DNA of 64,000 nucleotides, taken from the NCBI RefSeq assembly GCF_964275005.1, contig NW_027307657.1, positions 186,001-250,000 of the forward strand, written 5' to 3'. This DNA comes from Diadema setosum. Taxonomy: Eukaryota; Echinodermata; Echinoidea; Diadematoida; Diadematidae. Below the pieces are notes generated by a model. That model searched no databases, was not told the DNA's origin, and saw only the letters and a list, made by a program, of their open reading frames with translations. Positions 31,250 through 50,715 of this stretch are shown here, piece by piece (position 1 is the first letter of the stretch; each line of letters begins with the position of its first letter). Position numbers and translations under genes: made by a program.

Positions 31250-31261
31250 AATAGGCCTATA
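31250..31261. repeat. Left target site duplication AATAGGCCTATA
   Basis: Identical to 50704-50715. The two copies lie exactly where the Penelope-like sequence begins and ends. The site is itself nearly palindromic. Confidence 0.8.
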
Positions 31262-31309
31262 AGATAGAAGGGAAGAGGAAGAGGAAGGAGTTGAATGTTG
31301 GAGAATCAT
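31262..31309 (-). CDS. PLE reading frame start, truncated by array end
   Basis: Sixteen codons from the first ATG of the PLE frame (31309-31307), ending at the left target duplication. It is the outer 3' end of the left arm, so the element RNA that was copied ran past a unit boundary into the next unit. Confidence 0.7.
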
Positions 31310-31954
31310 GGAGATAGGGAAGAGCAGTGAAGATTCATGAAACCAAGAGAACGAAGTCGGCGAACAGTGTGACTATGGAATGCGAATGAATGGAGAAAGG
31401 ACGATTAACAGAAATAAGGAGGGGTAAGCAGAGGAGAAGTGAGAATATGCGGAGAGAAGGGAAAGAGAGAGAGGGGGGGGGGCAATGAAAAGAAGAAAAG
31501 AACAAATTGAAATTCAAGACGTAAATTAGAGGGAGCTATTGTAGATCCTAGAATTAAATGCTGCTGCGGAAAAGAAAAATAAATGGAGAGGAAATTGATG
31601 ACAGTTAAATCCTGAAAAGGTTCCTGTGGGAGAAATGCAAAAAATGAGAAATTAAAATAAGGTTAAAGTGTAGACCTGAGGAGAGAAGACAAGAGAAATA
31701 ACCTGTAAAGAAATGTGTAAATTAAAACTAGTGGTCCTGAAAAGGACCGTTGGGTTGTATGGAAGGAAGAAATAAAAGAAGAAGAAAAGAAGAAAGAAGA
31801 GAACAGAACAGAAAGAAAGGAAAAGATAAGTAGTGTAGAAACAGACAAAAAGTGTAAGAGAGAGAGAGAGAGAGAGAGAGGAAAGAGAAATGAAACACTG
31901 AGTAAAGGTACACAGCTAGTGAAAGTAGAGCAAGAAGTCTAGTTATAAGAATAA
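31310..31954 (-). promoter_or_regulatory. PLE inter-frame leader (pseudo-LTR-like), left arm unit 1
   Basis: A 645-bp spacer between the stop of one frame and the ATG of the next. On the coding strand it begins with a CTAGTTAT/ATAACTAG hairpin just after the stop, then a CT microsatellite, then pyrimidine-rich DNA with three acceptor-like CAG sites and a C-run. In PLEs such repeats carry the promoter and often a leader intron; that role is inferred here. Confidence 0.5.
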
Positions 31955-34900
31955 CTAGGAGAACCGAGGAACTTGACGTTTCGGGCAGGTTGACTGTCCT
32001 TCGTCAGAAGTGAAGCGTGATCTGAGGAGAGGCGGGCTATGTATGGAGAATGCGGACCTAGATGGAAGAGGTCGGTCAAGGCGGGCTCGCAGGCGGGCTG
32101 AGCGTCGGCTGTTGGTGGAGTGTTGTGGTCGTTGATGCGTTCTATTGTTCTTTGGGTGTGTTAGTGGGGGAGTACATTTGTGATGGCTAACTTGGCTGTT
32201 AGTAGGTCGTGCCCGGAGATTGGAGTCCGGGTTGGTAGATGGGGTGGACGCCTGTGGTGTGAATGAATTGTGTCGGTGAGGGCGTCTTCTGGAACCAGCG
32301 ATAGGTGTGGTCGTGAGTGGAAGGCGCGGTTGACGTCGTGGGCGCTGTTGTGAAGAGGTGGGGGAAGAATTATGAGAGGAAGAAGTAGAGGGGGGAATGT
32401 GCTGTGGAGAGAGTGTGTTGTTGTTGTCATTGTTGCTGTTTGATTGTTTGTTGATGAGAGGAAGCCAGATGTTGTTGATGTGGAGTCCAGTATCCTGTGT
32501 AACAGTGTCGTGTGTGTGAATTTCTATGGCTTCTCTGATGCGTCGTGTGTTCCAGTTTTTGATGGATGTGATGAGTTTGCTGTCTTCCCAGTTGATGCGA
32601 TGTTGCGACTGTTGAGCGTGTTTCACGATGGCTGACTTTTCCCATTCCGAACGTCTGTAGCATGTTTTGTGTTCTTTCAGTCTGGTCTCTAGCGATCTCC
32701 CTGTTTCACCTATGTAGACTTTGCCGCATTCGCATGGGATACGGTAGACACCTGGTTGTTTGTGTCTGGAGTGCTTGTCTTTGTGTGAGTGCAATGAATT
32801 GTGAAGTTTGTTGGAAGATGAATGACGGACCTGGATGTTGGCGGACTTGAAGATGCGTTGTAGTTTGTGCGAGGTGGCGCCGAGGTAGGGAAGATTTACA
32901 GTTGTGATGGGCTGTTCCTTGGCTGCTTGGTTGGGATGAGAAGGTGCTTGAGTGTTGATTTTGTGCTTGGGGTATTGGTTGATAGTGGTGAGTGTGTCTG
33001 TGATATGTTCGAGTTCTTGTCGAAGATGTTCTTTGTCGCTGATTTGATGAGCACGTCGGACGAGAGCGTTCGGTACTGACTGACGGACTGCTGGATGATG
33101 GAAGGAGCGGTAGTGAAGATATCTGTCTGTGTGAGTGGGTTTGCGGTAGACCTGGTGAGAGAAAGTGCCAGCGTTGGTCTTTGTGACGAGAACATCGAGG
33201 AAGGGGAGAGAATGGTTGTGTTCCGTTTCCACTGTGAATGAGATGTTGGAATGTTGTTCGTTGAGGTGTGTGAGGAAGTCGTCCAGTTGATCTGCTTGGT
33301 GTGGCCAGATGGTGAAGATGTCGTCGACATACCGGAGCCAGAGTGAAGGTTTGTGTTGTGCCGTGGCTAGTGCGTGACTTTCGAAATGTTCCATGTAAAT
33401 GTTGGCAATGATCGGTGAGAGGGGGGAGCCCATGGCTGCGCCTTGTTGCTGTTTGTAGTGTGTGTCCCTCCATCGGAAGGAGGTAGAATTGAGACATGTG
33501 AGGAGGAGGTCGTGTATCTGTTGTGGTGTGAGTTGTGTTCTGGAAGAAAGAGAAGGGTCATCGGTGAGACGTTGTTTGATGATGTCACAGGCTTCGTTGA
33601 CAGGAACGCTGGTGAAGAGTGATTCTACATCAAAGCTGACGAGGGTGTCTGTAGGGTTGATAGTAGTTTGAGAGAGAATGTCAATGAAGTGTTTGGAATT
33701 GTTAATGTGGTGTTCTGTGTTGCCAACGAGTGGCTGTAGAATGTCTGACAGGTGTTTGGCTGTTTCGTAGCAAGGGGAACCTCGTGTAGAAATGATGGGG
33801 CGGAGAGGCACTGATGGCTTGTGAATTTTGGGTTGCCCGAAGAGGATGGGACATCTGCTGGAGGAGGCACGGAGTCTGAAATAAAGCTGTTGAGGAAGGG
33901 CATTTGATCGATGAAGTTCGAGGAGCTTGGCGTTGAGTTTCCTCTCGGTGGCAGGAGTCGGGTCACGTTTCAGTTCGGTGTATGTGGGGGTGTGAAGGAT
34001 GTCTTGTATCTTTTGTTCGTATTGTGTTTTGTCCATGACGACCGTGGCGTTGCCTTTGTCTGCTTGAATGATATGGATGGATGCGTTGCTTTGTAGAGTC
34101 TTCACCGCTGTTCGTTCTTCTTTGTTGAGGTTGGGCTGCGGTGGCTTAGCTGTGGAGAGAGCTTGAGTAACAAGGAGTCGAATGTTGTCGGCTGCGGCTT
34201 TGTTCAGGTATCTGAGCTTGGGTTCCGTTTGTTGTATGATTTCTGTGAAAGGAATCTTCTTGGGTGGTGTTGCGAAGTTAAGCCCAAGGGATAACACGTT
34301 GTGTTCGGCTTGTGTGAGGTTGTGCTGGCTTAAATTGACAACTGTGTTGCGGGCGGCGGGCGGCTTGTCTCGTGTGTATGTATGGGTATGGCTGTTATGT
34401 AGTGTGTTGAACTTCCGTATCTGCTTCTCTCTGGTGCGAAGGAAGGTGGTCCTTGCTGTGTGAGAGTTGAAGGTCTGTATCTTCTGGAGGTCGGCATGAT
34501 GTAGTGTTTGTGACAAGTGTGTTTGTGAGGTGTTGATTTGTTGATCGATTGTGTGAAGTTCTTGTCGAGTATGGGCAATGCGTTCTCTGGTGAGGGAGAG
34601 GCCGGCTTGGTGAAGAATACGTCGAGCACGTGGAGTTTGTATGGTTGATTTCAGCTGTAGACCAGGAGGGATGATACTGTGATCTCGGCATCTTTTCAGA
34701 AAGGTGAGATGATTGGAGAGTTTAGATTGTTTGACTAGGTTCCGTTGAAGTAGGCGAGAAGATCGTTGAGTTTGCTCCCCGTAGAGCTCGGTTATGTGTT
34801 GTTTGAAGGTTTGCATGGTGAAGTTAATTAGGAAGAAAGATTTGCGGTGACACCATGTGTATGTAGTCCTTAACCGGATCGTAGTTTGGAAGAAGAGCTT

Positions 34901-35146
34901 AGAAAGAGGAGAAACGAAGAGGGAAGCGACATATGGGGGTTGTGAGGAGGGCAAAAAGTGAAGAGTGGGAGACAGTAATGGGCTGGAAGTTGAAGTTGCA
35001 CTAGTGGAGACAGTAGAGAAAGGAACACAGAGAGTGGTAAGGAAGAATAGTGTGAGAATCAAGTAAGATGTTCGGACATCGTTAGAAGGGGAAAGATGAG
35101 ATAGAAGGGAAGAGGAAGAGGAAGGAGTTGAATGTTGGAGAATCAT
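31955..35146 (-). CDS. PLE reverse transcriptase with GIY-YIG endonuclease, left unit 1
   Basis: A 1063-codon open frame. The first about 110 residues are Ser/Thr/Leu-rich and may be untranslated leader; Met111 (MQTFKQHITELYGEQ) is a likelier start. Domains in order: a coiled N-terminal part; the PLE-typical ADKGNATVVMD (residues about 362-372); the RT palm with FDVESLFTSVP (catalytic Asp506), QGAAMGSPLSP (about 568-578) and YVDD (606-609, catalytic Asp608/609); RT thumb; then a GIY-YIG nuclease with GVY at 799-801 and VYIG at 810-813, the CECG/H/C zinc-binding pattern, and conserved Arg, His and Glu. The C-terminus is Ser/Pro/Arg-rich and ends within a ribozyme motif. The enzyme would nick target DNA and prime reverse transcription there. 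All motifs are intact. The clade within EN-containing PLEs was not assigned. Confidence 0.92.
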   Translation of the reverse strand: MILQHSTPSSSSSLLSHLSPSNDVRTSYLILTLFFLTTLCVPFSTVSTSATSTSSPLLSPTLHFLPSSQPPYVASLFVSPLSKLFFQTTIRLRTTYTWCHRKSFFLINFTMQTFKQHITELYGEQTQRSSRLLQRNLVKQSKLSNHLTFLKRCRDHSIIPPGLQLKSTIQTPRARRILHQAGLSLTRERIAHTRQELHTIDQQINTSQTHLSQTLHHADLQKIQTFNSHTARTTFLRTREKQIRKFNTLHNSHTHTYTRDKPPAARNTVVNLSQHNLTQAEHNVLSLGLNFATPPKKIPFTEIIQQTEPKLRYLNKAAADNIRLLVTQALSTAKPPQPNLNKEERTAVKTLQSNASIHIIQADKGNATVVMDKTQYEQKIQDILHTPTYTELKRDPTPATERKLNAKLLELHRSNALPQQLYFRLRASSSRCPILFGQPKIHKPSVPLRPIISTRGSPCYETAKHLSDILQPLVGNTEHHINNSKHFIDILSQTTINPTDTLVSFDVESLFTSVPVNEACDIIKQRLTDDPSLSSRTQLTPQQIHDLLLTCLNSTSFRWRDTHYKQQQGAAMGSPLSPIIANIYMEHFESHALATAQHKPSLWLRYVDDIFTIWPHQADQLDDFLTHLNEQHSNISFTVETEHNHSLPFLDVLVTKTNAGTFSHQVYRKPTHTDRYLHYRSFHHPAVRQSVPNALVRRAHQISDKEHLRQELEHITDTLTTINQYPKHKINTQAPSHPNQAAKEQPITTVNLPYLGATSHKLQRIFKSANIQVRHSSSNKLHNSLHSHKDKHSRHKQPGVYRIPCECGKVYIGETGRSLETRLKEHKTCYRRSEWEKSAIVKHAQQSQHRINWEDSKLITSIKNWNTRRIREAIEIHTHDTVTQDTGLHINNIWLPLINKQSNSNNDNNNTLSPQHIPPSTSSSHNSSPTSSQQRPRRQPRLPLTTTPIAGSRRRPHRHNSFTPQASTPSTNPDSNLRARPTNSQVSHHKCTPPLTHPKNNRTHQRPQHSTNSRRSARLRARLDRPLPSRSAFSIHSPPLLRSRFTSDEGQSTCPKRQVPRFS
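31967..32012 (-). ncRNA. Hammerhead ribozyme motif, left unit 1
   Basis: On the minus strand the core CUGACGA (32007-32001), a stem GGACAG/CUGCCC with loop UCAAC, then GAAAC and GUC (31977-31975). Stem I can form between CACUU before the core and AAGUU after the cleavage site. ACGU in GAAACGUC is self-complementary, the arrangement seen in dimeric hammerheads with minimal stem III. Hammerheads are known in PLE repeats. Confidence 0.7.
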
Positions 35147-35792
35147 GGAGATAGGGAAGAGCAGTGAAGATTCATGAAACCAAGAGAACGAAGTCGGCGA
35201 ACAGTGTGACTATGGAATGCGAATGAATGGAGAAAGGACGATTAACAGAAATAAGGAGGGGTAAGCAGAGGAGAAGTGAGAATATGCGGAGAGAAGGGAG
35301 AGAGAGAGAGGGGGGGGGGGCAATGAAAAGAAGAAAAGAACAAATTGAAATTCAAGACGTAAATTAGAGGGAGCTATTGTAGATCCTAGAATTAAATGCT
35401 GCTGCGGAAAAGAAAAATAAATGGAGAGGAAATTGATGACAGTTAAATCCTGAAAAGGTTCCTGTGGGAGAAATGCAAAAAATGAGAAATTAAAATAAGG
35501 TTAAAGTGTAGACCTGAGGAGAGAAGACAAGAGAAATAACCTGTAAAGAAATGTGTAAATTAAAACTAGTGGTCCTGAAAAGGACCGTTGGGTTGTATGG
35601 AAGGAAGAAATAAAAGAAGAAGAAAAGAAGAAAGAAGAGAACAGAACAGAAAGAAAGGAAAAGATAAGTAGTGTAGAAACAGACAAAAAGTGTAAGAGAG
35701 AGAGAGAGAGAGAGAGAGGAAAGAGAAATGAAACACTGAGTAAAGGTACACAGCTAGTGAAAGTAGAGCAAGAAGTCTAGTTATAAGAATAA
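35147..35792 (-). promoter_or_regulatory. PLE inter-frame leader, left arm between units 1 and 2
   Basis: Same content and length as the other spacers: post-stop hairpin, CT tract (GA on plus strand, 35696-35720), acceptor-like sites and a G-run on the plus strand near 35310. It shows that the units are true tandem copies with no host DNA between them. Confidence 0.5.
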
Positions 35793-38700
35793 CTAGGAGA
35801 ACCGAGGAACTTGACGTTTCGGGCAGGTTGACTGTCCTTCGTCAGAAGTGAAGCGTGATCTGAGGAGAGGCGGGCTATGTATGGAGAATGCGGACCTAGA
35901 TGGAAGAGGTCGGTCAAGGCGGGCTCGCAGGCGGGCTGAGCGTCGGCTGTTGGTGGAGTGTTGTGGTCGTTGATGCGTTCTATTGTTCTTTGGGTGTGTT
36001 AGTGGGGGAGTACATTTGTGATGGCTAACTTGGCTGTTAGTAGGTCGTGCCCGGAGATTGGAGTCCGGGTTGGTAGATGGGGTGGACGCCTGTGGTGTGA
36101 ATGAATTGTGTCGGTGAGGGCGTCTTCTGGAACCAGCGATAGGTGTGGTCGTGAGTGGAAGGCGCGGTTGACGTCGTGGGCGCTGTTGTGAAGAGGTGGG
36201 GGAAGAATTATGAGAGGAAGAAGTAGAGGGGGGAATGTGCTGTGGAGAGAGTGTGTTGTTGTTGTCATTGTTGCTGTTTGATTGTTTGTTGATGAGAGGA
36301 AGCCAGATGTTGTTGATGTGGAGTCCAGTATCCTGTGTAACAGTGTCGTGTGTGTGAATTTCTATGGCTTCTCTGATGCGTCGTGTGTTCCAGTTTTTGA
36401 TGGATGTGATGAGTTTGCTGTCTTCCCAGTTGATGCGATGTTGCGACTGTTGAGCGTGTTTCACGATGGCTGACTTTTCCCATTCCGAACGTCTGTAGCA
36501 TGTTTTGTGTTCTTTCAGTCTGGTCTCTAGCGATCTCCCTGTTTCACCTATGTAGACTTTGCCGCATTCGCATGGGATACGGTAGACACCTGGTTGTTTG
36601 TGTCTGGAGTGCTTGTCTTTGTGTGAGTGCAATGAATTGTGAAGTTTGTTGGAAGATGAATGACGGACCTGGATGTTGGCGGACTTGAAGATGCGTTGTA
36701 GTTTGTGCGAGGTGGCGCCGAGGTAGGGAAGATTTACAGTTGTGATGGGCTGTTCCTTGGCTGCTTGGTTGGGATGAGAAGGTGCTTGAGTGTTGATTTT
36801 GTGCTTGGGGTATTGGTTGATAGTGGTGAGTGCGTCTGTGATATGTTCGAGTTCTTGTCGAAGATGTTCTTTGTCGCTGATTTGATGAGCACGTCGGACG
36901 AGAGCGTTCGGTACTGACTGACGGACTGCTGGATGATGGAAGGAGCGGTAGTGAAGATATCTGTCTGTGTGAGTGGGTTTGCGGTAGACCTGGTGAGAGA
37001 AAGTGCCAGCGTTGGTCTTTGTGACGAGAACATCGAGGAAGGGGAGAGAATGGTTGTGTTCCGTTTCCACTGTGAATGAGATGTTGGAATGTTGTTCGTT
37101 GAGGTGTGTGAGGAAGTCGTCCAGTTGATCTGCTTGGTGTGGCCAGATGGTGAAGATGTCGTCGACATACCGGAGCCAGAGTGAAGGTTTGTGTTGTGCC
37201 GTGGCTAGTGCGTGACTTTCGAAATGTTCCATGTAAATGTTGGCAATGATCGGTGAGAGGGGGGAGCCCATGGCTGCGCCTTGTTGCTGTTTGTAGTGTG
37301 TGTCCCTCCATCGGAAGGAGGTAGAATTGAGACATGTGAGGAGGAGGTCGTGTATCTGTTGTGGTGTGAGTTGTGTTCTGGAAGAAAGAGAAGGGTCATC
37401 GGTGAGACGTTGTTTGATGATGTCACAGGCTTCGTTGACAGGAACGCTGGTGAAGAGTGATTCTACATCAAAGCTGACGAGGGTGTCTGTAGGGTTGATA
37501 GTAGTTTGAGAGAGAATGTCAATGAAGTGTTTGGAATTGTTAATGTGGTGTTCTGTGTTGCCAACGAGTGGCTGTAGAATGTCTGACAGGTGTTTGGCTG
37601 TTTCGTAGCAAGGGGAACCTCGTGTAGAAATGATGGGGCGGAGAGGCACTGATGGCTTGTGAATTTTGGGTTGCCCGAAGAGGATGGGACATCTGCTGGA
37701 GGAGGCACGGAGTCTGAAATAAAGCTGTTGAGGAAGGGCATTTGATCGATGAAGTTCGAGGAGCTTGGCGTTGAGTTTCCTCTCGGTGGCAGGAGTCGGG
37801 TCACGTTTCAGTTCGGTGTATGTGGGGGTGTGAAGGATGTCTTGTATCTTTTGTTCGTATTGTGTTTTGTCCATGACGACCGTGGCGTTGCCTTTGTCTG
37901 CTTGAATGATATGGATGGATGCGTTGCTTTGTAGAGTCTTCACCGCTGTTCGTTCTTCTTTGTTGAGGTTGGGCTGCGGTGGCTTAGCTGTGGAGAGAGC
38001 TTGAGTAACAAGGAGTCGAATGTTGTCGGCTGCGGCTTTGTTCAGGTATCTGAGCTTGGGTTCCGTTTGTTGTATGATTTCTGTGAAAGGAATCTTCTTG
38101 GGTGGTGTTGCGAAGTTAAGCCCAAGGGATAACACGTTGTGTTCGGCTTGTGTGAGGTTGTGCTGGCTTAAATTGACAACTGTGTTGCGGGCGGCGGGTG
38201 GCTTGTCTCGTGTGTATGTATGGGTATGGCTGTTATGTAGTGTGTTGAACTTCCGTATCTGCTTCTCTCTGGTGCGAAGGAAGGTGGTCCTTGCTGTGTG
38301 AGAGTTGAAGGTCTGTATCTTCTGGAGGTCGGCATGATGTAGTGTTTGTGACAAGTGTGTTTGTGAGGTGTTGATTTGTTGATCGATTGTGTGAAGTTCT
38401 TGTCGAGTATGGGCAATGCGTTCTCTGGTGAGGGAGAGGCCGGCTTGGTGAAGAATACGTCGAGCACGTGGAGTTTGTATGGTTGATTTCAGCTGTAGAC
38501 CAGGAGGGATGATACTGTGATCTCGGCATCTTTTCAGAAAGGTGAGATGATTGGAGAGTTTAGATTGTTTGACTAGGTTCCGTTGAAGTAGGCGAGAAGA
38601 TCGTTGAGTTTGCTCCCCGTAGAGCTCGGTTATGTGTTGTTTGAAGGTTTGCATGGTGAAGTTAATTAGGAAGAAAGATTTGCGGTGACACCATGTGTAT

Positions 38701-38984
38701 GTAGTCCTTAACCGGATCGTAGTTTGGAAGAAGAGCTTAGAAAGAGGAGAAACGAAGAGGGAAGCGACATATGGGGGTTGTGAGGAGGGCAAAAAGTGAA
38801 GAGTGGGAGACAGTAATGGGCTGGAAGTTGAAGTTGCACTAGTGGAGACAGTAGAGAAAGGAACACAGAGAGTGGTAAGGAAGAATAGTGTGAGAATCAA
38901 GTAAGATGTTCGGACATCGTTAGAAGGGGAAAGATGAGATAGAAGGGAAGAGGAAGAGGAAGGAGTTGAATGTTGGAGAATCAT
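35793..38984 (-). CDS. PLE reverse transcriptase with GIY-YIG endonuclease, left unit 2
   Basis: A second complete 1063-codon frame. It differs from unit 1 by one amino acid that I can see (HITDALTT in place of HITDTLTT, codon near 36830) and one silent change near 38198. All RT and nuclease residues are intact (FDVESLFTSVP, YVDD, GVY/VYIG). It lies between two spacers in tandem with units 1 and 3, on the same strand. Confidence 0.92.
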   Translation of the reverse strand: MILQHSTPSSSSSLLSHLSPSNDVRTSYLILTLFFLTTLCVPFSTVSTSATSTSSPLLSPTLHFLPSSQPPYVASLFVSPLSKLFFQTTIRLRTTYTWCHRKSFFLINFTMQTFKQHITELYGEQTQRSSRLLQRNLVKQSKLSNHLTFLKRCRDHSIIPPGLQLKSTIQTPRARRILHQAGLSLTRERIAHTRQELHTIDQQINTSQTHLSQTLHHADLQKIQTFNSHTARTTFLRTREKQIRKFNTLHNSHTHTYTRDKPPAARNTVVNLSQHNLTQAEHNVLSLGLNFATPPKKIPFTEIIQQTEPKLRYLNKAAADNIRLLVTQALSTAKPPQPNLNKEERTAVKTLQSNASIHIIQADKGNATVVMDKTQYEQKIQDILHTPTYTELKRDPTPATERKLNAKLLELHRSNALPQQLYFRLRASSSRCPILFGQPKIHKPSVPLRPIISTRGSPCYETAKHLSDILQPLVGNTEHHINNSKHFIDILSQTTINPTDTLVSFDVESLFTSVPVNEACDIIKQRLTDDPSLSSRTQLTPQQIHDLLLTCLNSTSFRWRDTHYKQQQGAAMGSPLSPIIANIYMEHFESHALATAQHKPSLWLRYVDDIFTIWPHQADQLDDFLTHLNEQHSNISFTVETEHNHSLPFLDVLVTKTNAGTFSHQVYRKPTHTDRYLHYRSFHHPAVRQSVPNALVRRAHQISDKEHLRQELEHITDALTTINQYPKHKINTQAPSHPNQAAKEQPITTVNLPYLGATSHKLQRIFKSANIQVRHSSSNKLHNSLHSHKDKHSRHKQPGVYRIPCECGKVYIGETGRSLETRLKEHKTCYRRSEWEKSAIVKHAQQSQHRINWEDSKLITSIKNWNTRRIREAIEIHTHDTVTQDTGLHINNIWLPLINKQSNSNNDNNNTLSPQHIPPSTSSSHNSSPTSSQQRPRRQPRLPLTTTPIAGSRRRPHRHNSFTPQASTPSTNPDSNLRARPTNSQVSHHKCTPPLTHPKNNRTHQRPQHSTNSRRSARLRARLDRPLPSRSAFSIHSPPLLRSRFTSDEGQSTCPKRQVPRFS
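35805..35850 (-). ncRNA. Hammerhead ribozyme motif, left unit 2
   Basis: Same core as in unit 1, with CUGACGA at 35845-35839 and the GUC cleavage triplet at 35815-35813 on the minus strand. Confidence 0.7.
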
Positions 38985-39632
38985 GGAGATAGGGAAGAGC
39001 AGTGAAGATTCATGAAACCAAGAGAACGAAGTCGGCGAACAGTGTGACTATGGAATGCGAATGAATGGAGAAAGGACGATTAACAGAAATAAGGAGGGGT
39101 AAGCAGAGGAGAAGTGAGAATATGCGGAGAGAAGGGAGAGAGAGAGAGGGGGGGGGGGGGCAATGAAAAGAAGAAAAGAACAAATTGAAATTCAAGACGT
39201 AAATTAGAGGGAGCTATTGTAGATCCTAGAATTAAATGCTGCTGCGGAAAAGAAAAATAAATGGAGAGGAAATTGATGACAGTTAAATCCTGAAAAGGTT
39301 CCTGTGGGAGAAATGCAAAAAATGAGAAATTAAAATAAGGTTAAAGTGTAGACCTGAGGAGAGAAGACAAGAGAAATAACCTGTAAAGAAATGTGTAAAT
39401 TAAAACTAGTGGTCCTGAAAAGGACCGTTGGGTTGTATGGAAGGAAGAAATAAAAGAAGAAGAAAAGAAGAAAGAAGAGAACAGAACAGAAAGAAAGGAA
39501 AAGATAAGTAGTGTAGAAACAGACAAAAAGTGTAAGAGAGAGAGAGAGAGAGAGAGAGGAAAGAGAAATGAAACACTGAGTAAAGGTACACAGCTAGTGA
39601 AAGTAGAGCAAGAAGTCTAGTTATAAGAATAA
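38985..39632 (-). promoter_or_regulatory. PLE inter-frame leader, left arm between units 2 and 3
   Basis: Same spacer structure, with the longest G-run of the left arm (plus strand, near 39149). The length variation among spacers is confined mainly to this run. Confidence 0.5.
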
Positions 39633-40830
39633 CTAGGAGAACCGAGGAACTTGACGTTTCGGGCAGGTTGACTGTCCTTCGTCAGAAGTGAAGCGTGATC
39701 TGAGGAGAGGCGGGCTATGTATGGAGAATGCGGACCTAGATGGAAGAGGTCGGTCAAGGCGGGCTCGCAGGCGGGCTGAGCGTCGGCTGTTGGTGGAGTG
39801 TTGTGGTCGTTGATGCGTTCTATTGTTCTTTGGGTGTGTTAGTGGGGGAGTACATTTGTGATGGCTAACTTGGCTGTTAGTAGGTCGTGCCCGGAGATTG
39901 GAGTCCGGGTTGGTAGATGGGGTGGACGCCTGTGGTGTGAATGAATTGTGTCGGTGAGGGCGTCTTCTGGAACCAGCGATAGGTGTGGTCGTGAGTGGAA
40001 GGCGCGGTTGACGTCGTGGGCGCTGTTGTGAAGAGGTGGGGGAAGAATTATGAGAGGAAGAAGTAGAGGGGGGAATGTGCTGTGGAGAGAGTGTGTTGTT
40101 GTTGTCATTGTTGCTGTTTGATTGTTTGTTGATGAGAGGAAGCCAGATGTTGTTGATGTGGAGTCCAGTATCCTGTGTAACAGTGTCGTGTGTGTGAATT
40201 TCTATGGCTTCTCTGATGCGTCGTGTGTTCCAGTTTTTGATGGATGTGATGAGTTTGCTGTCTTCCCAGTTGATGCGATGTTGCGACTGTTGAGCGTGTT
40301 TCACGATGGCTGACTTTTCCCATTCCGAACGTCTGTAGCATGTTTTGTGTTCTTTCAGTCTGGTCTCTAGCGATCTCCCTGTTTCACCTATGTAGACTTT
40401 GCCGCATTCGCATGGGATACGGTAGACACCTGGTTGTTTGTGTCTGGAGTGCTTGTCTTTGTGTGAGTGCAATGAATTGTGAAGTTTGTTGGAAGATGAA
40501 TGACGGACCTGGATGTTGGCGGACTTGAAGATGCGTTGTAGTTTGTGCGAGGTGGCGCCGAGGTAGGGAAGATTTACAGTTGTGATGGGCTGTTCCTTGG
40601 CTGCTTGGTTGGGATGAGAAGGTGCTTGAGTGTTGATTTTGTGCTTGGGGTATTGGTTGATAGTGGTGAGTGTGTCTGTGATATGTTCGAGTTCTTGTCG
40701 AAGATGTTCTTTGTCGCTGATTTGATGAGCACGTCGGACGAGAGCGTTCGGTACTGACTGACGGACTGCTGGATGATGGAAGGAGCGGTAGTGAAGATAT
40801 CTGTCTGTGTGAGTGGGTTTGCGGTAGACC
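39633..40830 (-). CDS. PLE frame, 5'-truncated central copy of left arm
   Basis: Encodes residues from about 666 to 1063 of the PLE protein: the RT thumb (VYRKPTHTDRYLHYRSFHHP), the linker and the complete GIY-YIG nuclease. The RT palm is absent. It begins at the palindrome centre, where it faces its mirror copy. An ATG-initiated 418-codon frame runs across the centre into antisense of the other arm; its first 20 or so residues are an artefact of the junction. Confidence 0.85.
39645..39690 (-). ncRNA. Hammerhead ribozyme motif, left unit 3
   Basis: CUGACGA at 39685-39679 and GUC at 39655-39653 on the minus strand, in the same context as the other copies. Confidence 0.7.
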
Positions 40831-40889
40831 TGGTCTACCGCAAACCCACTCACACAGACAGATATCTTCACTACCGCTCCTTCCATCAT
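40773..40889. repeat. Centre of the 19-kb palindrome
   Basis: The two arms meet at base 40831. From 40830 leftward and 40832 rightward the sequence is perfectly complementary (GCGGTAGACC, T, GGTCTACCGC at the core). The core ACCTGGT is the complement of ACCAGGT present in intact units, so the joint lies in a seven-base near-palindrome. There is no spacer. Confidence 0.95.
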
Positions 40890-42029
40890 CCAGCAGTCCG
40901 TCAGTCAGTACCGAACGCTCTCGTCCGACGTGCTCATCAAATCAGCGACAAAGAACATCTTCGACAAGAACTCGAACATATCACAGACACACTCACCACT
41001 ATCAACCAATACCCCAAGCACAAAATCAACACTCAAGCACCTTCTCATCCCAACCAAGCAGCCAAGGAACAGCCCATCACAACTGTAAATCTTCCCTACC
41101 TCGGCGCCACCTCGCACAAACTACAACGCATCTTCAAGTCCGCCAACATCCAGGTCCGTCATTCATCTTCCAACAAACTTCACAATTCATTGCACTCACA
41201 CAAAGACAAGCACTCCAGACACAAACAACCAGGTGTCTACCGTATCCCATGCGAATGCGGCAAAGTCTACATAGGTGAAACAGGGAGATCGCTAGAGACC
41301 AGACTGAAAGAACACAAAACATGCTACAGACGTTCGGAATGGGAAAAGTCAGCCATCGTGAAACACGCTCAACAGTCGCAACATCGCATCAACTGGGAAG
41401 ACAGCAAACTCATCACATCCATCAAAAACTGGAACACACGACGCATCAGAGAAGCCATAGAAATTCACACACACGACACTGTTACACAGGATACTGGACT
41501 CCACATCAACAACATCTGGCTTCCTCTCATCAACAAACAATCAAACAGCAACAATGACAACAACAACACACTCTCTCCACAGCACATTCCCCCCTCTACT
41601 TCTTCCTCTCATAATTCTTCCCCCACCTCTTCACAACAGCGCCCACGACGTCAACCGCGCCTTCCACTCACGACCACACCTATCGCTGGTTCCAGAAGAC
41701 GCCCTCACCGACACAATTCATTCACACCACAGGCGTCCACCCCATCTACCAACCCGGACTCCAATCTCCGGGCACGACCTACTAACAGCCAAGTTAGCCA
41801 TCACAAATGTACTCCCCCACTAACACACCCAAAGAACAATAGAACGCATCAACGACCACAACACTCCACCAACAGCCGACGCTCAGCCCGCCTGCGAGCC
41901 CGCCTTGACCGACCTCTTCCATCTAGGTCCGCATTCTCCATACATAGCCCGCCTCTCCTCAGATCACGCTTCACTTCTGACGAAGGACAGTCAACCTGCC
42001 CGAAACGTCAAGTTCCTCGGTTCTCCTAG
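40832..42029 (+). CDS. PLE frame, 5'-truncated central copy of right arm
   Basis: The mirror of the left central copy: residues about 666-1063, RT thumb plus complete GIY-YIG nuclease (GVYRIPCECGKVYIGETG), with no RT palm. Truncated at the same base as its mirror copy. It is followed by a ribozyme motif at its end and by the standard spacer. Confidence 0.85.
41972..42017 (+). ncRNA. Hammerhead ribozyme motif, right unit 1
   Basis: CUGACGA at 41977-41983, stem GGACAG/CUGCCC, GAAAC at 42002-42006, GUC at 42007-42009. Predicted cleavage falls after 42009, 20 bases before the end of the stop codon. Confidence 0.7.
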
Positions 42030-42673
42030 TTATTCTTATAACTAGACTTCTTGCTCTACTTTCACTAGCTGTGTACCTTTACTCAGTGTTTCATTTCTCT
42101 TTCCTCTCTCTCTCTCTCTCTCTCTCTTACACTTTTTGTCTGTTTCTACACTACTTATCTTTTCCTTTCTTTCTGTTCTGTTCTCTTCTTTCTTCTTTTC
42201 TTCTTCTTTTATTTCTTCCTTCCATACAACCCAACGGTCCTTTTCAGGACCACTAGTTTTAATTTACACATTTCTTTACAGGTTATTTCTCTTGTCTTCT
42301 CTCCTCAGGTCTACACTTTAACCTTATTTTAATTTCTCATTTTTTGCATTTCTCCCACAGGAACCTTTTCAGGATTTAACTGTCATCAATTTCCTCTCCA
42401 TTTATTTTTCTTTTCCGCAGCAGCATTTAATTCTAGGATCTACAATAGCTCCCTCTAATTTACGTCTTGAATTTCAATTTGTTCTTTTCTTCTTTTCATT
42501 GCCCCCCCCCTCTCTCTCTCTCCCTTCTCTCCGCATATTCTCACTTCTCCTCTGCTTACCCCTCCTTATTTCTGTTAATCGTCCTTTCTCCATTCATTCG
42601 CATTCCATAGTCACACTGTTCGCCGACTTCGTTCTCTTGGTTTCATGAATCTTCACTGCTCTTCCCTATCTCC
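42030..42673 (+). promoter_or_regulatory. PLE inter-frame leader, right arm between units 1 and 2
   Basis: Starts with the CTAGTTAT/ATAACTAG hairpin, which overlaps the stop codon (about 42028-42047), then a CT tract, pyrimidine-rich DNA with acceptor-like TTTACAG, CCCACAG and CCGCAG, and a C-run near 42503. Confidence 0.5.
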
Positions 42674-45600
42674 ATGATTCTCCAACATTCAACTCCTTCC
42701 TCTTCCTCTTCCCTTCTATCTCATCTTTCCCCTTCTAACGATGTCCGAACATCTTACTTGATTCTCACACTATTCTTCCTTACCACTCTCTGTGTTCCTT
42801 TCTCTACTGTCTCCACTAGTGCAACTTCAACTTCCAGCCCATTACTGTCTCCCACTCTTCACTTTTTGCCCTCCTCACAACCCCCATATGTCGCTTCCCT
42901 CTTCGTTTCTCCTCTTTCTAAGCTCTTCTTCCAAACTACGATCCGGTTAAGGACTACATACACATGGTGTCACCGCAAATCTTTCTTCCTAATTAACTTC
43001 ACCATGCAAACCTTCAAACAACACATAACCGAGCTCTACGGGGAGCAAACTCAACGATCTTCTCGCCTACTTCAACGGAACCTAGTCAAACAATCTAAAC
43101 TCTCCAATCATCTCACCTTTCTGAAAAGATGCCGAGATCACAGTATCATCCCTCCTGGTCTACAGCTGAAATCAACCATACAAACTCCACGTGCTCGACG
43201 TATTCTTCACCAAGCCGGCCTCTCCCTCACCAGAGAACGCATTGCCCATACTCGACAAGAACTTCACACAATCGATCAACAAATCAACACCTCACAAACA
43301 CACTTGTCACAAACACTACATCATGCCGACCTCCAGAAGATACAGACCTTCAACTCTCACACAGCAAGGACCACCTTCCTTCGCACCAGAGAGAAGCAGA
43401 TACGGAAGTTCAACACACTACATAACAGCCATACCCATACATACACACGAGACAAGCCGCCCGCCGCCCGCAACACAGTTGTCAATTTAAGCCAGCACAA
43501 CCTCACACAAGCCGAACACAACGTGTTATCCCTTGGGCTTAACTTCGCAACACCACCCAAGAAGATTCCTTTCACAGAAATCATACAACAAACGGAACCC
43601 AAGCTCAGATACCTGAACAAAGCCGCAGCCGACAACATTCGACTCCTTGTTACTCAAGCTCTCTCCACAGCTAAGCCACCGCAGCCCAACCTCAACAAAG
43701 AAGAACGAACAGCGGTGAAGACTCTACAAAGCAACGCATCCATCCATATCATTCAAGCAGACAAAGGCAACGCCACGGTCGTCATGGACAAAACACAATA
43801 CGAACAAAAGATACAAGACATCCTTCACACCCCCACATACACCGAACTGAAACGTGACCCGACTCCTGCCACCGAGAGGAAACTCAACGCCAAGCTCCTC
43901 GAACTTCATCGATCAAATGCCCTTCCTCAACAGCTTTATTTCAGACTCCGTGCCTCCTCCAGCAGATGTCCCATCCTCTTCGGGCAACCCAAAATTCACA
44001 AGCCATCAGTGCCTCTCCGCCCCATCATTTCTACACGAGGTTCCCCTTGCTACGAAACAGCCAAACACCTGTCAGACATTCTACAGCCACTCGTTGGCAA
44101 CACAGAACACCACATTAACAATTCCAAACACTTCATTGACATTCTCTCTCAAACTACTATCAACCCTACAGACACCCTCGTCAGCTTTGATGTAGAATCA
44201 CTCTTCACCAGCGTTCCTGTCAACGAAGCCTGTGACATCATCAAACAACGTCTCACCGATGACCCTTCTCTTTCTTCCAGAACACAACTCACACCACAAC
44301 AGATACACGACCTCCTCCTCACATGTCTCAATTCTACCTCCTTCCGATGGAGGGACACACACTACAAACAGCAACAAGGCGCAGCCATGGGCTCCCCCCT
44401 CTCACCGATCATTGCCAACATTTACATGGAACATTTCGAAAGTCACGCACTAGCCACGGCACAACACAAACCTTCACTCTGGCTCCGGTATGTCGACGAC
44501 ATCTTCACCATCTGGCCACACCAAGCAGATCAACTGGACGACTTCCTCACACACCTCAACGAACAACATTCCAACATCTCATTCACAGTGGAAACGGAAC
44601 ACAACCATTCTCTCCCCTTCCTCGATGTTCTCGTCACAAAGACCAACGCTGGCACTTTCTCTCACCAGGTCTACCGCAAACCCACTCACACAGACAGATA
44701 TCTTCACTACCGCTCCTTCCATCATCCAGCAGTCCGTCAGTCAGTACCGAACGCTCTCGTCCGACGTGCTCATCAAATCAGCGACAAAGAACATCTTCGA
44801 CAAGAACTCGAACATATCACAGACACACTCACCACTATCAACCAATACCCCAAGCACAAAATCAACACTCAAGCACCTTCTCATCCCAACCAAGCAGCCA
44901 AGGAACAGCCCATCACAACTGTTAAATCTTCCCTACCTCGGCGCCACCTCGCACAAACTACAACGCATCTTCAAGTCCGCCAACATCCAGGTCCGTCATT
45001 CATCTTCCAACAAACTTCACAATTCATTGCACTCACACAAAGACAAGCACTCCAGACACAAACAACCAGGTGTCTACCGTATCCCATGCGAATGCGGCAA
45101 AGTCTACATAGGTGAAACAGGGAGATCGCTAGAGACCAGACTGAAAGAACACAAAACATGCTACAGACGTTCGGAATGGGAAAAGTCAGCCATCGTGAAA
45201 CACGCTCAACAGTCGCAACATCGCATCAACTGGGAAGACAGCAAACTCATCACATCCATCAAAAACTGGAACACACGACGCATCAGAGAAGCCATAGAAA
45301 TTCACACACACGACACTGTTACACAGGATACTGGACTCCACATCAACAACATCTGGCTTCCTCTCATCAACAAACAATCAAACAGCAACAATGACAACAA
45401 CAACACACTCTCTCCACAGCACATTCCCCCCTCTACTTCTTCCTCTCATAATTCTTCCCCCACCTCTTCACAACAGCGCCCACGACGTCAACCGCGCCTT
45501 CCACTCACGACCACACCTATCGCTGGTTCCAGAAGACGCCCTCACCGACACAATTCATTCACACCACAGGCGTCCACCCCATCTACCAACCCGGACTCCA

Positions 45601-45866
45601 ATCTCCGGGCACGACCTACTAACAGCCAAGTTAGCCATCACAAATGTACTCCCCCACTAACACACCCAAAGAACAATAGAACGCATCAACGACCACAACA
45701 CTCCACCAACAGCCGACGCTCAGCCCGCCTGCGAGCCCGCCTTGACCGACCTCTTCCATCTAGGTCCGCATTCTCCATACATAGCCCGCCTCTCCTCAGA
45801 TCACGCTTCACTTCTGACGAAGGACAGTCAACCTGCCCGAAACGTCAAGTTCCTCGGTTCTCCTAG
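42674..45866 (+). CDS. PLE reverse transcriptase with GIY-YIG endonuclease, right unit 2 (frame split)
   Basis: The same protein as the complete units, but one extra T near 44922 splits the frame. The first part (to 45115) keeps the whole RT with FDVESLFTSVP, GAAMGSPLSP and YVDD. The nuclease follows in another frame to 45866. It is otherwise identical to its neighbours as far as I can see. The single difference could be a real mutation or a consensus error in a collapsed repeat. Confidence 0.85.
45809..45854 (+). ncRNA. Hammerhead ribozyme motif, right unit 2
   Basis: CUGACGA at 45814-45820, GAAAC at 45839-45843, GUC at 45844-45846, with the same stems. Confidence 0.7.
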
Positions 45867-46513
45867 TTATTCTTATAACTAGACTTCTTGCTCTACTTTC
45901 ACTAGCTGTGTACCTTTACTCAGTGTTTCATTTCTCTTTCCTCTCTCTCTCTCTCTCTCTCTCTTACACTTTTTGTCTGTTTCTACACTACTTATCTTTT
46001 CCTTTCTTTCTGTTCTGTTCTCTTCTTTCTTCTTTTCTTCTTCTTTTATTTCTTCCTTCCATACAACCCAACGGTCCTTTTCAGGACCACTAGTTTTAAT
46101 TTACACATTTCTTTACAGGTTATTTCTCTTGTCTTCTCTCCTCAGGTCTACACTTTAACCTTATTTTAATTTCTCATTTTTTGCATTTCTCCCACAGGAA
46201 CCTTTTCAGGATTTAACTGTCATCAATTTCCTCTCCATTTATTTTTCTTTTCCGCAGCAGCATTTAATTCTAGGATCTACAATAGCTCCCTCTAATTTAC
46301 GTCTTGAATTTCAATTTGTTCTTTTCTTCTTTTCATTGCCCCCCCCCCCCTCTCTCTCTCTCCCTTCTCTCCGCATATTCTCACTTCTCCTCTGCTTACC
46401 CCTCCTTATTTCTGTTAATCGTCCTTTCTCCATTCATTCGCATTCCATAGTCACACTGTTCGCCGACTTCGTTCTCTTGGTTTCATGAATCTTCACTGCT
46501 CTTCCCTATCTCC
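45867..46513 (+). promoter_or_regulatory. PLE inter-frame leader, right arm between units 2 and 3
   Basis: Acceptor-like CAG sites lie at 46116-46118, 46195-46197 and 46255-46257, each after a pyrimidine tract; a C-run lies near 46340. The hairpin sits at its start. Confidence 0.5.
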
Positions 46514-49500
46514 ATGATTCTCCAACATTCAACTCCTTCCTCTTCCTCTTCCCTTCTATCTCATCTTTCCCCTTCTAACGATGTCCGAACATCTTACTTG
46601 ATTCTCACACTATTCTTCCTTACCACTCTCTGTGTTCCTTTCTCTACTGTCTCCACTAGTGCAACTTCAACTTCCAGCCCATTACTGTCTCCCACTCTTC
46701 ACTTTTTGCCCTCCTCACAACCCCCATATGTCGCTTCCCTCTTCGTTTCTCCTCTTTCTAAGCTCTTCTTCCAAACTACGATCCGGTTAAGGACTACATA
46801 CACATGGTGTCACCGCAAATCTTTCTTCCTAATTAACTTCACCATGCAAACCTTCAAACAACACATAACCGAGCTCTACGGGGAGCAAACTCAACGATCT
46901 TCTCGCCTACTTCAACGGAACCTAGTCAAACAATCTAAACTCTCCAATCATCTCACCTTTCTGAAAAGATGCCGAGATCACAGTATCATCCCTCCTGGTC
47001 TACAGCTGAAATCAACCATACAAACTCCACGTGCTCGACGTATTCTTCACCAAGCCGGCCTCTCCCTCACCAGAGAACGCATTGCCCATACTCGACAAGA
47101 ACTTCACACAATCGATCAACAAATCAACACCTCACAAACACACTTGTCACAAACACTACATCATGCCGACCTCCAGAAGATACAGACCTTCAACTCTCAC
47201 ACAGCAAGGACCACCTTCCTTCGCACCAGAGAGAAGCAGATACGGAAGTTCAACACACTACATAACAGCCATACCCATACATACACACGAGACAAGCCGC
47301 CCGCCGCCCGCAACACAGTTGTCAATTTAAGCCAGCACAACCTCACACAAGCCGAACACAACGTGTTATCCCTTGGGCTTAACTTCGCAACACCACCCAA
47401 GAAGATTCCTTTCACAGAAATCATACAACAAACGGAACCCAAGCTCAGATACCTGAACAAAGCCGCAGCCGACAACATTCGACTCCTTGTTACTCAAGCT
47501 CTCTCCACAGCTAAGCCACCGCAGCCCAACCTCAACAAAGAAGAACGAACAGCGGTGAAGACTCTACAAAGCAACGCATCCATCCATATCATTCAAGCAG
47601 ACAAAGGCAACGCCACGGTCGTCATGGACAAAACACAATACGAACAAAAGATACAAGACATCCTTCACACCCCCACATACACCGAACTGAAACGTGACCC
47701 GACTCCTGCCACCGAGAGGAAACTCAACGCCAAGCTCCTCGAACTTCATCGATCAAATGCCCTTCCTCAACAGCTTTATTTCAGACTCCGTGCCTCCTCC
47801 AGCAGATGTCCCATCCTCTTCGGGCAACCCAAAATTCACAAGCCATCAGTGCCTCTCCGCCCCATCATTTCTACACGAGGTTCCCCTTGCTACGAAACAG
47901 CCAAACACCTGTCAGACATTCTACAGCCACTCGTTGGCAACACAGAACACCACATTAACAATTCCAAACACTTCATTGACATTCTCTCTCAAACTACTAT
48001 CAACCCTACAGACACCCTCGTCAGCTTTGATGTAGAATCACTCTTCACCAGCGTTCCTGTCAACGAAGCCTGTGACATCATCAAACAACGTCTCACCGAT
48101 GACCCTTCTCTTTCTTCCAGAACACAACTCACACCACAACAGATACACGACCTCCTCCTCACATGTCTCAATTCTACCTCCTTCCGATGGAGGGACACAC
48201 ACTACAAACAGCAACAAGGCGCAGCCATGGGCTCCCCCCTCTCACCGATCATTGCCAACATTTACATGGAACATTTCGAAAGTCACGCACTAGCCACGGC
48301 ACAACACAAACCTTCACTCTGGCTCCGGTATGTCGACGACATCTTCACCATCTGGCCACACCAAGCAGATCAACTGGACGACTTCCTCACACACCTCAAC
48401 GAACAACATTCCAACATCTCATTCACAGTGGAAACGGAACACAACCATTCTCTCCCCTTCCTCGATGTTCTCGTCACAAAGACCAACGCTGGCACTTTCT
48501 CTCACCAGGTCTACCGCAAACCCACTCACACAGACAGATATCTTCACTACCGCTCCTTCCATCATCCAGCAGTCCGTCAGTCAGTACCGAACGCTCTCGT
48601 CCGACGTGCTCATCAAATCAGCGACAAAGAACATCTTCGACAAGAACTCGAACATATCACAGACACACTCACCACTATCAACCAATACCCCAAGCACAAA
48701 ATCAACACTCAAGCACCTTCTCATCCCAACCAAGCAGCCAAGGAACAGCCCATCACAACTGTAAATCTTCCCTACCTCGGCGCCACCTCGCACAAACTAC
48801 AACGCATCTTCAAGTCCGCCAACATCCAGGTCCGTCATTCATCTTCCAACAAACTTCACAATTCATTGCACTCACACAAAGACAAGCACTCCAGACACAA
48901 ACAACCAGGTGTCTACCGTATCCCATGCGAATGCGGCAAAGTCTACATAGGTGAAACAGGGAGATCGCTAGAGACCAGACTGAAAGAACACAAAACATGC
49001 TACAGACGTTCGGAATGGGAAAAGTCAGCCATCGTGAAACACGCTCAACAGTCGCAACATCGCATCAACTGGGAAGACAGCAAACTCATCACATCCATCA
49101 AAAACTGGAACACACGACGCATCAGAGAAGCCATAGAAATTCACACACACGACACTGTTACACAGGATACTGGACTCCACATCAACAACATCTGGCTTCC
49201 TCTCATCAACAAACAATCAAACAGCAACAATGACAACAACAACACACTCTCTCCACAGCACATTCCCCCCTCTACTTCTTCCTCTCATAATTCTTCCCCC
49301 ACCTCTTCACAACAGCGCCCACGACGTCAACCGCGCCTTCCACTCACGACCACACCTATCGCTGGTTCCAGAAGACGCCCTCACCGACACAATTCATTCA
49401 CACCACAGGCGTCCACCCCATCTACCAACCCGGACTCCAATCTCCGGGCACGACCTACTAACAGCCAAGTTAGCCATCACAAATGTACTCCCCCACTAAC

Positions 49501-49705
49501 ACACCCAAAGAACAATAGAACGCATCAACGACCACAACACTCCACCAACAGCCGACGCTCAGCCCGCCTGCGAGCCCGCCTTGACCGACCTCTTCCATCT
49601 AGGTCCGCATTCTCCATACATAGCCCGCCTCTCCTCAGATCACGCTTCACTTCTGACGAAGGACAGTCAACCTGCCCGAAACGTCAAGTTCCTCGGTTCT
49701 CCTAG
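46514..49705 (+). CDS. PLE reverse transcriptase with GIY-YIG endonuclease, right unit 3 (complete)
   Basis: A complete 1063-codon frame, identical in translation to left unit 1 as far as I can see. Met111 is at 46844. ADKG is at about 47597, the motif-A Asp506 codon at 48029, YVDD at 48329-48340, GVY at 48908 and VYIG at 48941. The TSDEGQSTCPKRQVPRFS C-terminus is encoded by the ribozyme sequence. Intact and probably recent. It lies in tandem with the split unit upstream and a truncated frame downstream. Confidence 0.92.
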   Translation: MILQHSTPSSSSSLLSHLSPSNDVRTSYLILTLFFLTTLCVPFSTVSTSATSTSSPLLSPTLHFLPSSQPPYVASLFVSPLSKLFFQTTIRLRTTYTWCHRKSFFLINFTMQTFKQHITELYGEQTQRSSRLLQRNLVKQSKLSNHLTFLKRCRDHSIIPPGLQLKSTIQTPRARRILHQAGLSLTRERIAHTRQELHTIDQQINTSQTHLSQTLHHADLQKIQTFNSHTARTTFLRTREKQIRKFNTLHNSHTHTYTRDKPPAARNTVVNLSQHNLTQAEHNVLSLGLNFATPPKKIPFTEIIQQTEPKLRYLNKAAADNIRLLVTQALSTAKPPQPNLNKEERTAVKTLQSNASIHIIQADKGNATVVMDKTQYEQKIQDILHTPTYTELKRDPTPATERKLNAKLLELHRSNALPQQLYFRLRASSSRCPILFGQPKIHKPSVPLRPIISTRGSPCYETAKHLSDILQPLVGNTEHHINNSKHFIDILSQTTINPTDTLVSFDVESLFTSVPVNEACDIIKQRLTDDPSLSSRTQLTPQQIHDLLLTCLNSTSFRWRDTHYKQQQGAAMGSPLSPIIANIYMEHFESHALATAQHKPSLWLRYVDDIFTIWPHQADQLDDFLTHLNEQHSNISFTVETEHNHSLPFLDVLVTKTNAGTFSHQVYRKPTHTDRYLHYRSFHHPAVRQSVPNALVRRAHQISDKEHLRQELEHITDTLTTINQYPKHKINTQAPSHPNQAAKEQPITTVNLPYLGATSHKLQRIFKSANIQVRHSSSNKLHNSLHSHKDKHSRHKQPGVYRIPCECGKVYIGETGRSLETRLKEHKTCYRRSEWEKSAIVKHAQQSQHRINWEDSKLITSIKNWNTRRIREAIEIHTHDTVTQDTGLHINNIWLPLINKQSNSNNDNNNTLSPQHIPPSTSSSHNSSPTSSQQRPRRQPRLPLTTTPIAGSRRRPHRHNSFTPQASTPSTNPDSNLRARPTNSQVSHHKCTPPLTHPKNNRTHQRPQHSTNSRRSARLRARLDRPLPSRSAFSIHSPPLLRSRFTSDEGQSTCPKRQVPRFS
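49648..49693 (+). ncRNA. Hammerhead ribozyme motif, right unit 3
   Basis: CUGACGA at 49653-49659, GAAAC at 49678-49682, GUC at 49683-49685. Cleavage would fall 20 bases before the end of the stop codon at 49703-49705. Confidence 0.7.
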
Positions 49706-50351
49706 TTATTCTTATAACTAGACTTCTTGCTCTACTTTCACTAGCTGTGTACCTTTACTCAGTGTTTCATTTCTCTTTCCTCTCTCTCTCTCTCTCTCTC
49801 TCTTACACTTTTTGTCTGTTTCTACACTACTTATCTTTTCCTTTCTTTCTGTTCTGTTCTCTTCTTTCTTCTTTTCTTCTTCTTTTATTTCTTCCTTCCA
49901 TACAACCCAACGGTCCTTTTCAGGACCACTAGTTTTAATTTACACATTTCTTTACAGGTTATTTCTCTTGTCTTCTCTCCTCAGGTCTACACTTTAACCT
50001 TATTTTAATTTCTCATTTTTTGCATTTCTCCCACAGGAACCTTTTCAGGATTTAACTGTCATCAATTTCCTCTCCATTTATTTTTCTTTTCCGCAGCAGC
50101 ATTTAATTCTAGGATCTACAATAGCTCCCTCTAATTTACGTCTTGAATTTCAATTTGTTCTTTTCTTCTTTTCATTGCCCCCCCCCCCTCTCTCTCTCTC
50201 CCTTCTCTCCGCATATTCTCACTTCTCCTCTGCTTACCCCTCCTTATTTCTGTTAATCGTCCTTTCTCCATTCATTCGCATTCCATAGTCACACTGTTCG
50301 CCGACTTCGTTCTCTTGGTTTCATGAATCTTCACTGCTCTTCCCTATCTCC
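49706..50351 (+). promoter_or_regulatory. PLE leader at outer end of right arm
   Basis: Same spacer as elsewhere. It is the outermost leader of the right arm and is followed by the start of another reading frame. Confidence 0.5.
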
Positions 50352-50703
50352 ATGATTCTCCAACATTCAACTCCTTCCTCTTCCTCTTCCCTTCTATCTC
50401 ATCTTTCCCCTTCTAACGATGTCCGAACATCTTACTTGATTCTCACACTATTCTTCCTTACCACTCTCTGTGTTCCTTTCTCTACTGTCTCCACTAGTGC
50501 AACTTCAACTTCCAGCCCATTACTGTCTCCCACTCTTCACTTTTTGCCCTCCTCACAACCCCCATATGTCGCTTCCCTCTTCGTTTCTCCTCTTTCTAAG
50601 CTCTTCTTCCAAACTACGATCCGGTTAAGGACTACATACACATGGTGTCACCGCAAATCTTTCTTCCTAATTAACTTCACCATGCAAACCTTCAAACAAC
50701 ACA
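50352..50703 (+). CDS. PLE reading frame start, truncated by right array end
   Basis: 117 codons from the first ATG, ending just after Met111 (MQTFKQH) where the right target duplication begins. The left arm stops much earlier (48 nt into the frame), so the two arms have different 3' ends. Confidence 0.75.
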
Positions 50704-50715
50704 AATAGGCCTATA
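50704..50715. repeat. Right target site duplication AATAGGCCTATA
   Basis: An exact copy of 31250-31261, placed at the end of the PLE sequence. It joins host DNA of different content (TACGTACACATACT). Confidence 0.8.

Follow-up and report, generated by a model that had tools for sequence, protein, structure and literature searches.

A large head-to-head Penelope-like array in the sea urchin Diadema setosum and the paired arm ends of its family

The window analyzed here, a stretch of 64,000 nucleotides from the sea urchin Diadema setosum (C31:186001-250000 in an assembly of ~913 Mb and 102 contigs; C1, C3 and similar labels denote contigs), contains an array of tandem 3838-bp units of a Penelope-like element (PLE). 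The units are arranged in two opposed arms and together span ~19 kb (31262-50703). We lean, by a modest degree, towards the view that this array is a recent single PLE insertion whose left arm was made by fold-back copying of the right arm. The most useful result comes from its relatives: in canonical two-arm insertions of this family, the arms carry one each of two alternative start sites, and the window array is a variant of this known type of PLE insertion. It shows a rare outcome, a near-perfect palindrome of ~19 kb with several open reading frames (ORFs) that apparently arrived in one step, and bears on the origin of large inverted repeats and tandem arrays in genomes. The pattern of one start per arm, seen in 25 out of 25 canonical loci, makes the joint use of the two PLE start sites a specific and testable claim.

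The array and its borders

The left arm (31262 to ~40834, antisense, ~2.5 units) and the right arm (~40828 to 50703, sense, 2.57 units) have their 3' ends facing outward, and their 5'-truncated ends meet at 40828-40834 (Table 1). The tandem unit joins are seamless, and the units, which are ~99.9% identical, differ by only a few bases. When the arms are compared as mirror images in a global pairwise alignment, 9564 of 9568 positions are identical, besides four short indels. Both arms stop at the same unit position (1639), with neither a spacer nor foreign bases at the center. Their outer ends are not equivalent: the right arm is longer by 304 nt and ends at unit position 3838, whereas the left arm breaks off at ~3534. 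The closer of the two family end positions, 3805, lies 271 nt further on. This left end directly abuts the intact target duplication and was therefore joined to it at insertion. Apart from the center base, three substitutions separate mirror positions, all of them on the left arm; at these positions, 10, 22 and 2 other loci whose flanks match exactly have the right-arm state, and none has the left-arm state.

The 12-bp sequence AATAGGCCTATA is present exactly at both outer borders and has no other match in the window on either strand, and the host DNA flanking the two outer sides is dissimilar. In the whole genome, it occurs far more often than a reversed control (787+829 matches vs 29+20, i.e. 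1616 vs 49, ~33-fold). Despite this density of one match per ~0.56 Mb, its chance occurrence at exactly both borders is implausible. Target-specific insertion into the enriched 12-mer is ruled out, since other duplications of the family have unrelated sequences. The original prediction, made from the letters of the window, had described a palindromic Penelope-like array with a 12-bp duplication at its outer borders, 3' ends facing outward and 5'-truncated ends meeting at the center; the exact borders, the differing flanks and the unit mapping of both arms bear it out, and the single insertion event that it proposed holds. The symmetry it ascribed to the palindrome is evident in the mirror identity and breaks down at the unequal outer ends. 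MicroRNA matches at the array center were dismissed as palindrome artefacts with scores below the cut-offs.

Two-arm insertions across the family

The palindromic layout alone is not what is unusual about the window array, because head-to-head insertions are common in the same PLE family. Its odd features are the size (~2.5 units per arm), the exact center and the non-canonical left end. The earlier emphasis on a multi-unit palindrome as the unusual part is thus justified with respect to size, but not with respect to layout.

Our census draws on the first 100 of 140 exact genomic matches to a 38-mer near the unit 3' end, together with loci mapped earlier; it is partial, favors young copies and covers one genome. 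Among these 100 matches, neighbors less than 15 kb apart form 20 head-to-head, 0 tail-to-tail and 10 same-strand pairs, and head-to-head insertion is normal for this family. The first mapping covered the window and 24 other loci, comprising 13 two-arm loci (the window included) and 12 single-arm loci. Six of the 20 head-to-head pairs had been mapped before, and the outer ends of the other 14 were fetched (the C11 locus is in both sets). In all, 27 two-arm loci were examined, with centers mapped in 14 (the window and 13 others).

Two canonical ends are present in 25 of these 27 loci, the exceptions being the window and C3:8991347-9000746. In every one of the 25, the two arms use different positions, one terminating at ~3838 (range 3837-3842) and the other at ~3805 (range 3801-3814). 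Each end adjoins a candidate target duplication, 8-16 bp long if bases that also belong to the element end are included. The candidate at C12:39304216 is only A-rich, and the duplications at C3:37008286, C4:41666476 and C11:6768314 were read by eye. The right end of C3:37008286, where the BLAST alignment overran by 12 bases, is likewise 3838 by eye; for the C11 locus, with its left end near C11:6768314, the reading covers the parts on either side of 6768335-6773299. Single-arm loci with a readable 3' end (n=11) terminate at ~3838 in seven cases (one at 3833) and at ~3805 in four (3803-3814). If both arms chose their ends independently at these single-arm frequencies, ~46% of the loci would be expected to be discordant, and the probability of observing 25 out of 25 would be near 4e-9. 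We did not find a quantitative one-of-each start rule in the open-licence literature searched.

Two further large arrays are near-symmetric and carry one end of each kind: C4:41666476-41676867, which measures 10.4 kb and has arms of 5242 and 5142 bp with 99.6% identity, and C3:37008286-37018538, which has more than one unit per arm and whose right arm is interrupted and was partly read. Centers were mapped in 13 of the 26 two-arm loci besides the window, and their inner ends are offset by at least 126 bp in every case. The second exceptional locus, C3:8991347-9000746, has outer ends at 3484 and 3752 and unequal inner ends, and a target duplication was looked for there and not found. The two-arm insertion at C19:10915384-10924006 (L017/L032/L036) contains a repeated 2.2-kb block with short intervening pieces in its minus arm.

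The simplest account of the paired ends would be that the target is cut in a staggered manner so that the bases to be duplicated form 3' overhangs, that both overhangs are extended, and that a protein dimer assigns the start sites to its two halves. The usual route of the family would then have both target ends primed, one at 3838 and one at 3805, with no fold-back step. Priming at both nicks, as originally proposed, agrees with the family (25 of the 27 loci, and the in vitro activity described in excerpts of PMC11167929), but less well with the window itself, given the left end at ~3534 and the exact center. A more comprehensive model, which we put forward tentatively and do not expect to hold in every part, is that a PLE dimer acts on a staggered double cut with each protomer using one of two starts 33 nt apart. 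Two-arm insertions would thereby start from a tailed end on one side and a tail-less end on the other, and where only the tailed side is primed, the multi-unit cDNA could turn back on itself and yield a giant near-perfect palindrome such as that in the window.

Possible origins of the second arm

In the fold-back reading that we favor for the window, the enzyme would cut both strands at staggered positions, and the 12 bp would remain as 3' overhangs. The right 3' end would prime reverse transcription at the internal start site 3838, and ~2.57 seamless units would be copied from a tandem transcript, from a circular RNA or by strand transfer through the repeated pseudo-long terminal repeat (pLTR). 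Synthesis would halt in ACCTGGT at 40828-40834, where the cDNA end would switch onto its own strand via GGT/ACC. Back-copying would then proceed over 9.57 kb and halt 304 nt early, the short end would be joined to the left target end, and the second strand would be filled in. We favor this course of events because one self-copied cDNA predicts both an exact center and a short, odd left end, whereas two independent cDNAs predict neither. In the window, the arms meet at the same position without a spacer (center 40831), and the shorter left arm fits a copy that stopped early. Self-priming has also been put forward, on an antisense template, to interpret palindromes at the inverted junctions of Adineta vaga Penelope elements (in excerpts of PMC3846280).

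Several points weigh against fold-back copying. It would require a hairpin whose loop is a single base, which does not form easily in cis. The arrays at C4:41666476-41676867 and C3:37008286-37018538 follow the pattern of one start per arm, which shows that large palindromes can also result from dual priming, and C3:8991347-9000746 has odd outer ends without an exact center, so such ends can arise otherwise. The arm alignment contains no copying error common to both arms at mirror positions, and hence no direct sign of templating; the three substitutions are too few to weigh, as three out of three on one arm has a probability of 1/4. Finally, the array center could be open to assembly effects.

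Dual target-primed reverse transcription, in which both 3' ends of the staggered cut prime separate multi-unit cDNAs that are then joined via ACC/GGT, is apparently the standard route of the family, as both canonical ends at 25 of the 27 two-arm loci indicate. It has further backing in a lizard PLE protein, which cleaves and extends both strands, using internal sites that are non-homologous (excerpts of PMC11167929), and in the C4 array, whose near-equal arms each exceed one unit. Two cDNA ends reading ACCTGGT could also pair with one mismatch. For the window, we nonetheless regard this explanation as unlikely. With both strands primed, both outer 3' ends are expected at family start sites, which is the case at the right (3838) but not at the left (~3534). 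The left cDNA would have to begin at an unusual internal site, and both RNAs or enzyme stops would have to end at the same base. Two coincidences would be needed: a start displaced by 271 nt from the closer site, and inner ends that match to the nucleotide, the latter unlike the 13 other mapped loci with their offset inner ends.

An assembly error in the interior, affecting the number of units or the exact center while the outer borders are right, appears improbable to us. It would be favored by the near-identity of the units and by an array as long as many long reads. The first 102 bases of the right flank match only the window locus (40 of 1178 candidates scored), with no second allele, a result that is compatible with a single assembled allele. 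However, a fold-back read artefact would put the same flank on both sides, whereas the flanks differ and carry the duplication; the opposed outer arms demand a head-to-head junction somewhere; and the left-arm units have private substitutions. Still less credible is an ordinary two-arm insertion that was later enlarged by unequal exchange or inverted duplication between the arms and homogenized by gene conversion: the repeated block in one arm of C19:10915384-10924006 shows that arms can rearrange, but changes inside the array do not explain a non-canonical left end that touches the duplication exactly, and the near absence of differences leaves little time.

With regard to the template, similarity over comparable stretches was assessed at 14 two-arm loci. 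At seven of these, the two arms resemble each other more than they resemble other mapped loci: the window, C1:22145032, C4:41666476, C8:1812465, C19:10915384, C19:3123403 and C3:46078472. At C1:22145032, for example, identity is 99.7% between the arms and 98.0-98.4% to other loci. At the remaining seven (C2:45169660, C3:37008286, C3:8991347, C6:4571897, C11:6774559, C19:32877907 and C20:33993742), another locus ties or wins, or the result is mixed. The comparison thus supports a single source for each insertion at half of these loci. Because the unit joins are seamless, we suggest that the units were copied from a tandem or circular template or were linked by strand transfer via the repeated pLTR. 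Differences among the segments of the C4:41666476 array are private to single segments; the same holds for the window, where ordering the arms by differences between tandem units was uninformative.

The element, its protein and neighboring features

We classify the window element as a PLE, probably of the endonuclease-bearing Penelope/Poseidon type, on account of its tandem organization, its pLTR-like redundancy, its tail and the short duplications beside it. Units in tandem or partial tandem, which form pLTRs, are found in the window and at several other loci, such as C8:36415986 and C7:14808879; the two classes of 3' ends, 33 nt apart, correspond to the optional 30-40 bp tail of PLEs; and the target duplications are short and variable in length (12 bp in the window, 8-16 bp in the candidates elsewhere). 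Complete copies of the protein frame in the window number four, three of them open from stop to stop and the fourth with an extra T.

The 953-residue protein has 716 homologs at E<=0.001 among 7992 scored candidates. The closest protein among those scored is from Diadema antillarum, with 96% identity across 85% of the query; the next named sources are other urchins and sea stars. A C-terminal motif, GVYRIPCECGKVYIGETGR...H...H, was recognized by eye and aligns, with substitutions, in 11 of 11 chosen proteins; we take it to be GIY-YIG-like. The Pfam GIY-YIG family gave no score on the whole protein or on the C-terminal region alone, and PF01541 is annotated in one of the 120 listed homologs (P0087). 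Hammerhead ribozymes occur in other PLEs. Here, Rfam yielded no hammerhead match up to E 1 in 31000-51000, and CTGATGA does not occur in the unit; we therefore rejected monomers produced by a hammerhead.

Table 1. Features of the array and its element in the window.
Feature	Position	Strand	Basis
Left target-site duplication copy, AATAGGCCTATA	31250..31261	.	Exact match to 50704-50715
Left arm, outermost unit without the 3' 304 nt (unit ~3534 to 1)	31262..34794	-	
Left arm, complete 3838-bp unit	34795..38632	-	
Left arm, inner 5'-truncated unit (3838 to ~1639)	38633..40834	-	
Center: 7-bp imperfect palindrome ACCTGGT common to both arms, center base 40831	40828..40834	.	
Right arm, inner 5'-truncated unit (1639 to 3838)	40828..43025	+	
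Right arm, complete unit; reading frame broken by extra T at 44922	43026..46865	+	
Right arm, outermost complete unit, end at unit 3838	46866..50703	+	
33-bp tail (unit 3806-3838) at outer right border; missing from outer left border	50671..50703	+	
Right target-site duplication copy, AATAGGCCTATA	50704..50715	.	Match to left copy
ORF, 953 aa from ATG: reverse transcriptase (RVT_1), then GIY-YIG-like region	46844..49705	+	RVT_1 1.7e-11, homologs, alignment
Open frame of the same protein, 1084 codons stop to stop, left arm	31955..35209	-	
Open frame of the same protein, 1084 codons stop to stop, left arm	35793..39047	-	
Histone-type 3' stem-loop GGTCCTTTTCAGGACC in element 3' untranslated region	49907..49952	+	Rfam RF00032, 35.1 bits, cut-off 34
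Further histone-type stem-loop copies	42231, 46068	+	RF00032
Further histone-type stem-loop copies	31708, 35546, 39386	-	RF00032

The 3' untranslated region contains a predicted histone-type stem-loop, GGTCCTTTTCAGGACC. Among the mapped genome copies spanning this region it varies little, with a stem change in one and a loop change in another. A genome search with RF00032 gave 72 matches over the cut-off (37.4-46.5 bits; 75 of 148445 candidates scored); the PLE copies are not among them, and those listed lie mostly in one C3 cluster of putative histone genes. The stem-loop may point to histone-like RNA processing of a retrotransposon; a narrow literature search found no report of such a stem-loop in a retrotransposon. 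Two separate insertions, C7:14808879 (L011) and C3:46079004 (L012/L046), have a common 5' end at unit position 3065, two bases past the stem-loop, and in a third copy, C18:28059291 (L042), there is an interruption at 3069-3073. Either a halt of the reverse transcriptase or the end of an RNA could account for the common end.

Elsewhere in the window, a diverged tandem array with a period of ~190 bp (52194-53802) adjoins the insertion. An inverted pair of ~90-bp tandem repeats with runs of C or G (26289-27660), ~90% alike, perhaps represents the ends of another mobile element, and a tRNA-Asp gene is predicted at 22570-22644 (+).

Comparison with known systems

In LINE-1 twin priming, two primers at one break give rise to inverted segments, which are joined by microhomology and flanked by a target duplication. 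The window array resembles this outcome in its inverted segments and its target duplication, which arise from two primers at one break in twin priming. It differs in the content of the arms: twin-primed LINE-1 arms represent different parts of one RNA, whereas the window arms repeat the same sequence.

A closer parallel is found in the Penelope elements of Adineta vaga, as described in excerpts of PMC3846280. These have direct pLTRs plus an adjacent inverted pLTR, with head-to-head as the commonest inverted arrangement. Some whole inserts are surrounded by duplications of 8-10 bp, partial tandems occur, and a 31-bp tail is optional on one of the inverted pLTRs. Pen3 and Pen4 form long tandem or inverted structures, which were not assembled whole. 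The window family thus shares with them the pLTRs, the head-to-head inversion, the duplications, the optional one-sided tail and the junction palindromes. However, the typical inverted part in A. vaga is a single pLTR of ~0.2 kb, whereas the window arms comprise ~2.5 units each and meet base for base; furthermore, one outer end of the window array is not a normal start.

On the biochemical side, the purified PLE protein of Anolis carolinensis (Poseidon PAc) cuts and extends both strands in vitro, using two adjacent internal start sites whose intervening sequence is the genomic tail (Frangieh et al., excerpts of PMC11167929). PAc and the sea-urchin element are alike in their tandem units with pLTRs, their two internal starts spaced by the tail, extension of both strands and an AC-rich start region. 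They differ in that the main start of PAc lies 111-118 nt into the ORF, while in the sea urchin one end is located 12 nt ahead of the ORF and the other 22 nt inside it, and in that PAc carries a hammerhead ribozyme, which we did not find in the sea-urchin element. Lastly, no difference in start-site use between the strands was seen for PAc in vitro, whereas the sea-urchin family shows one start of each kind in all 25 canonical two-arm insertions.

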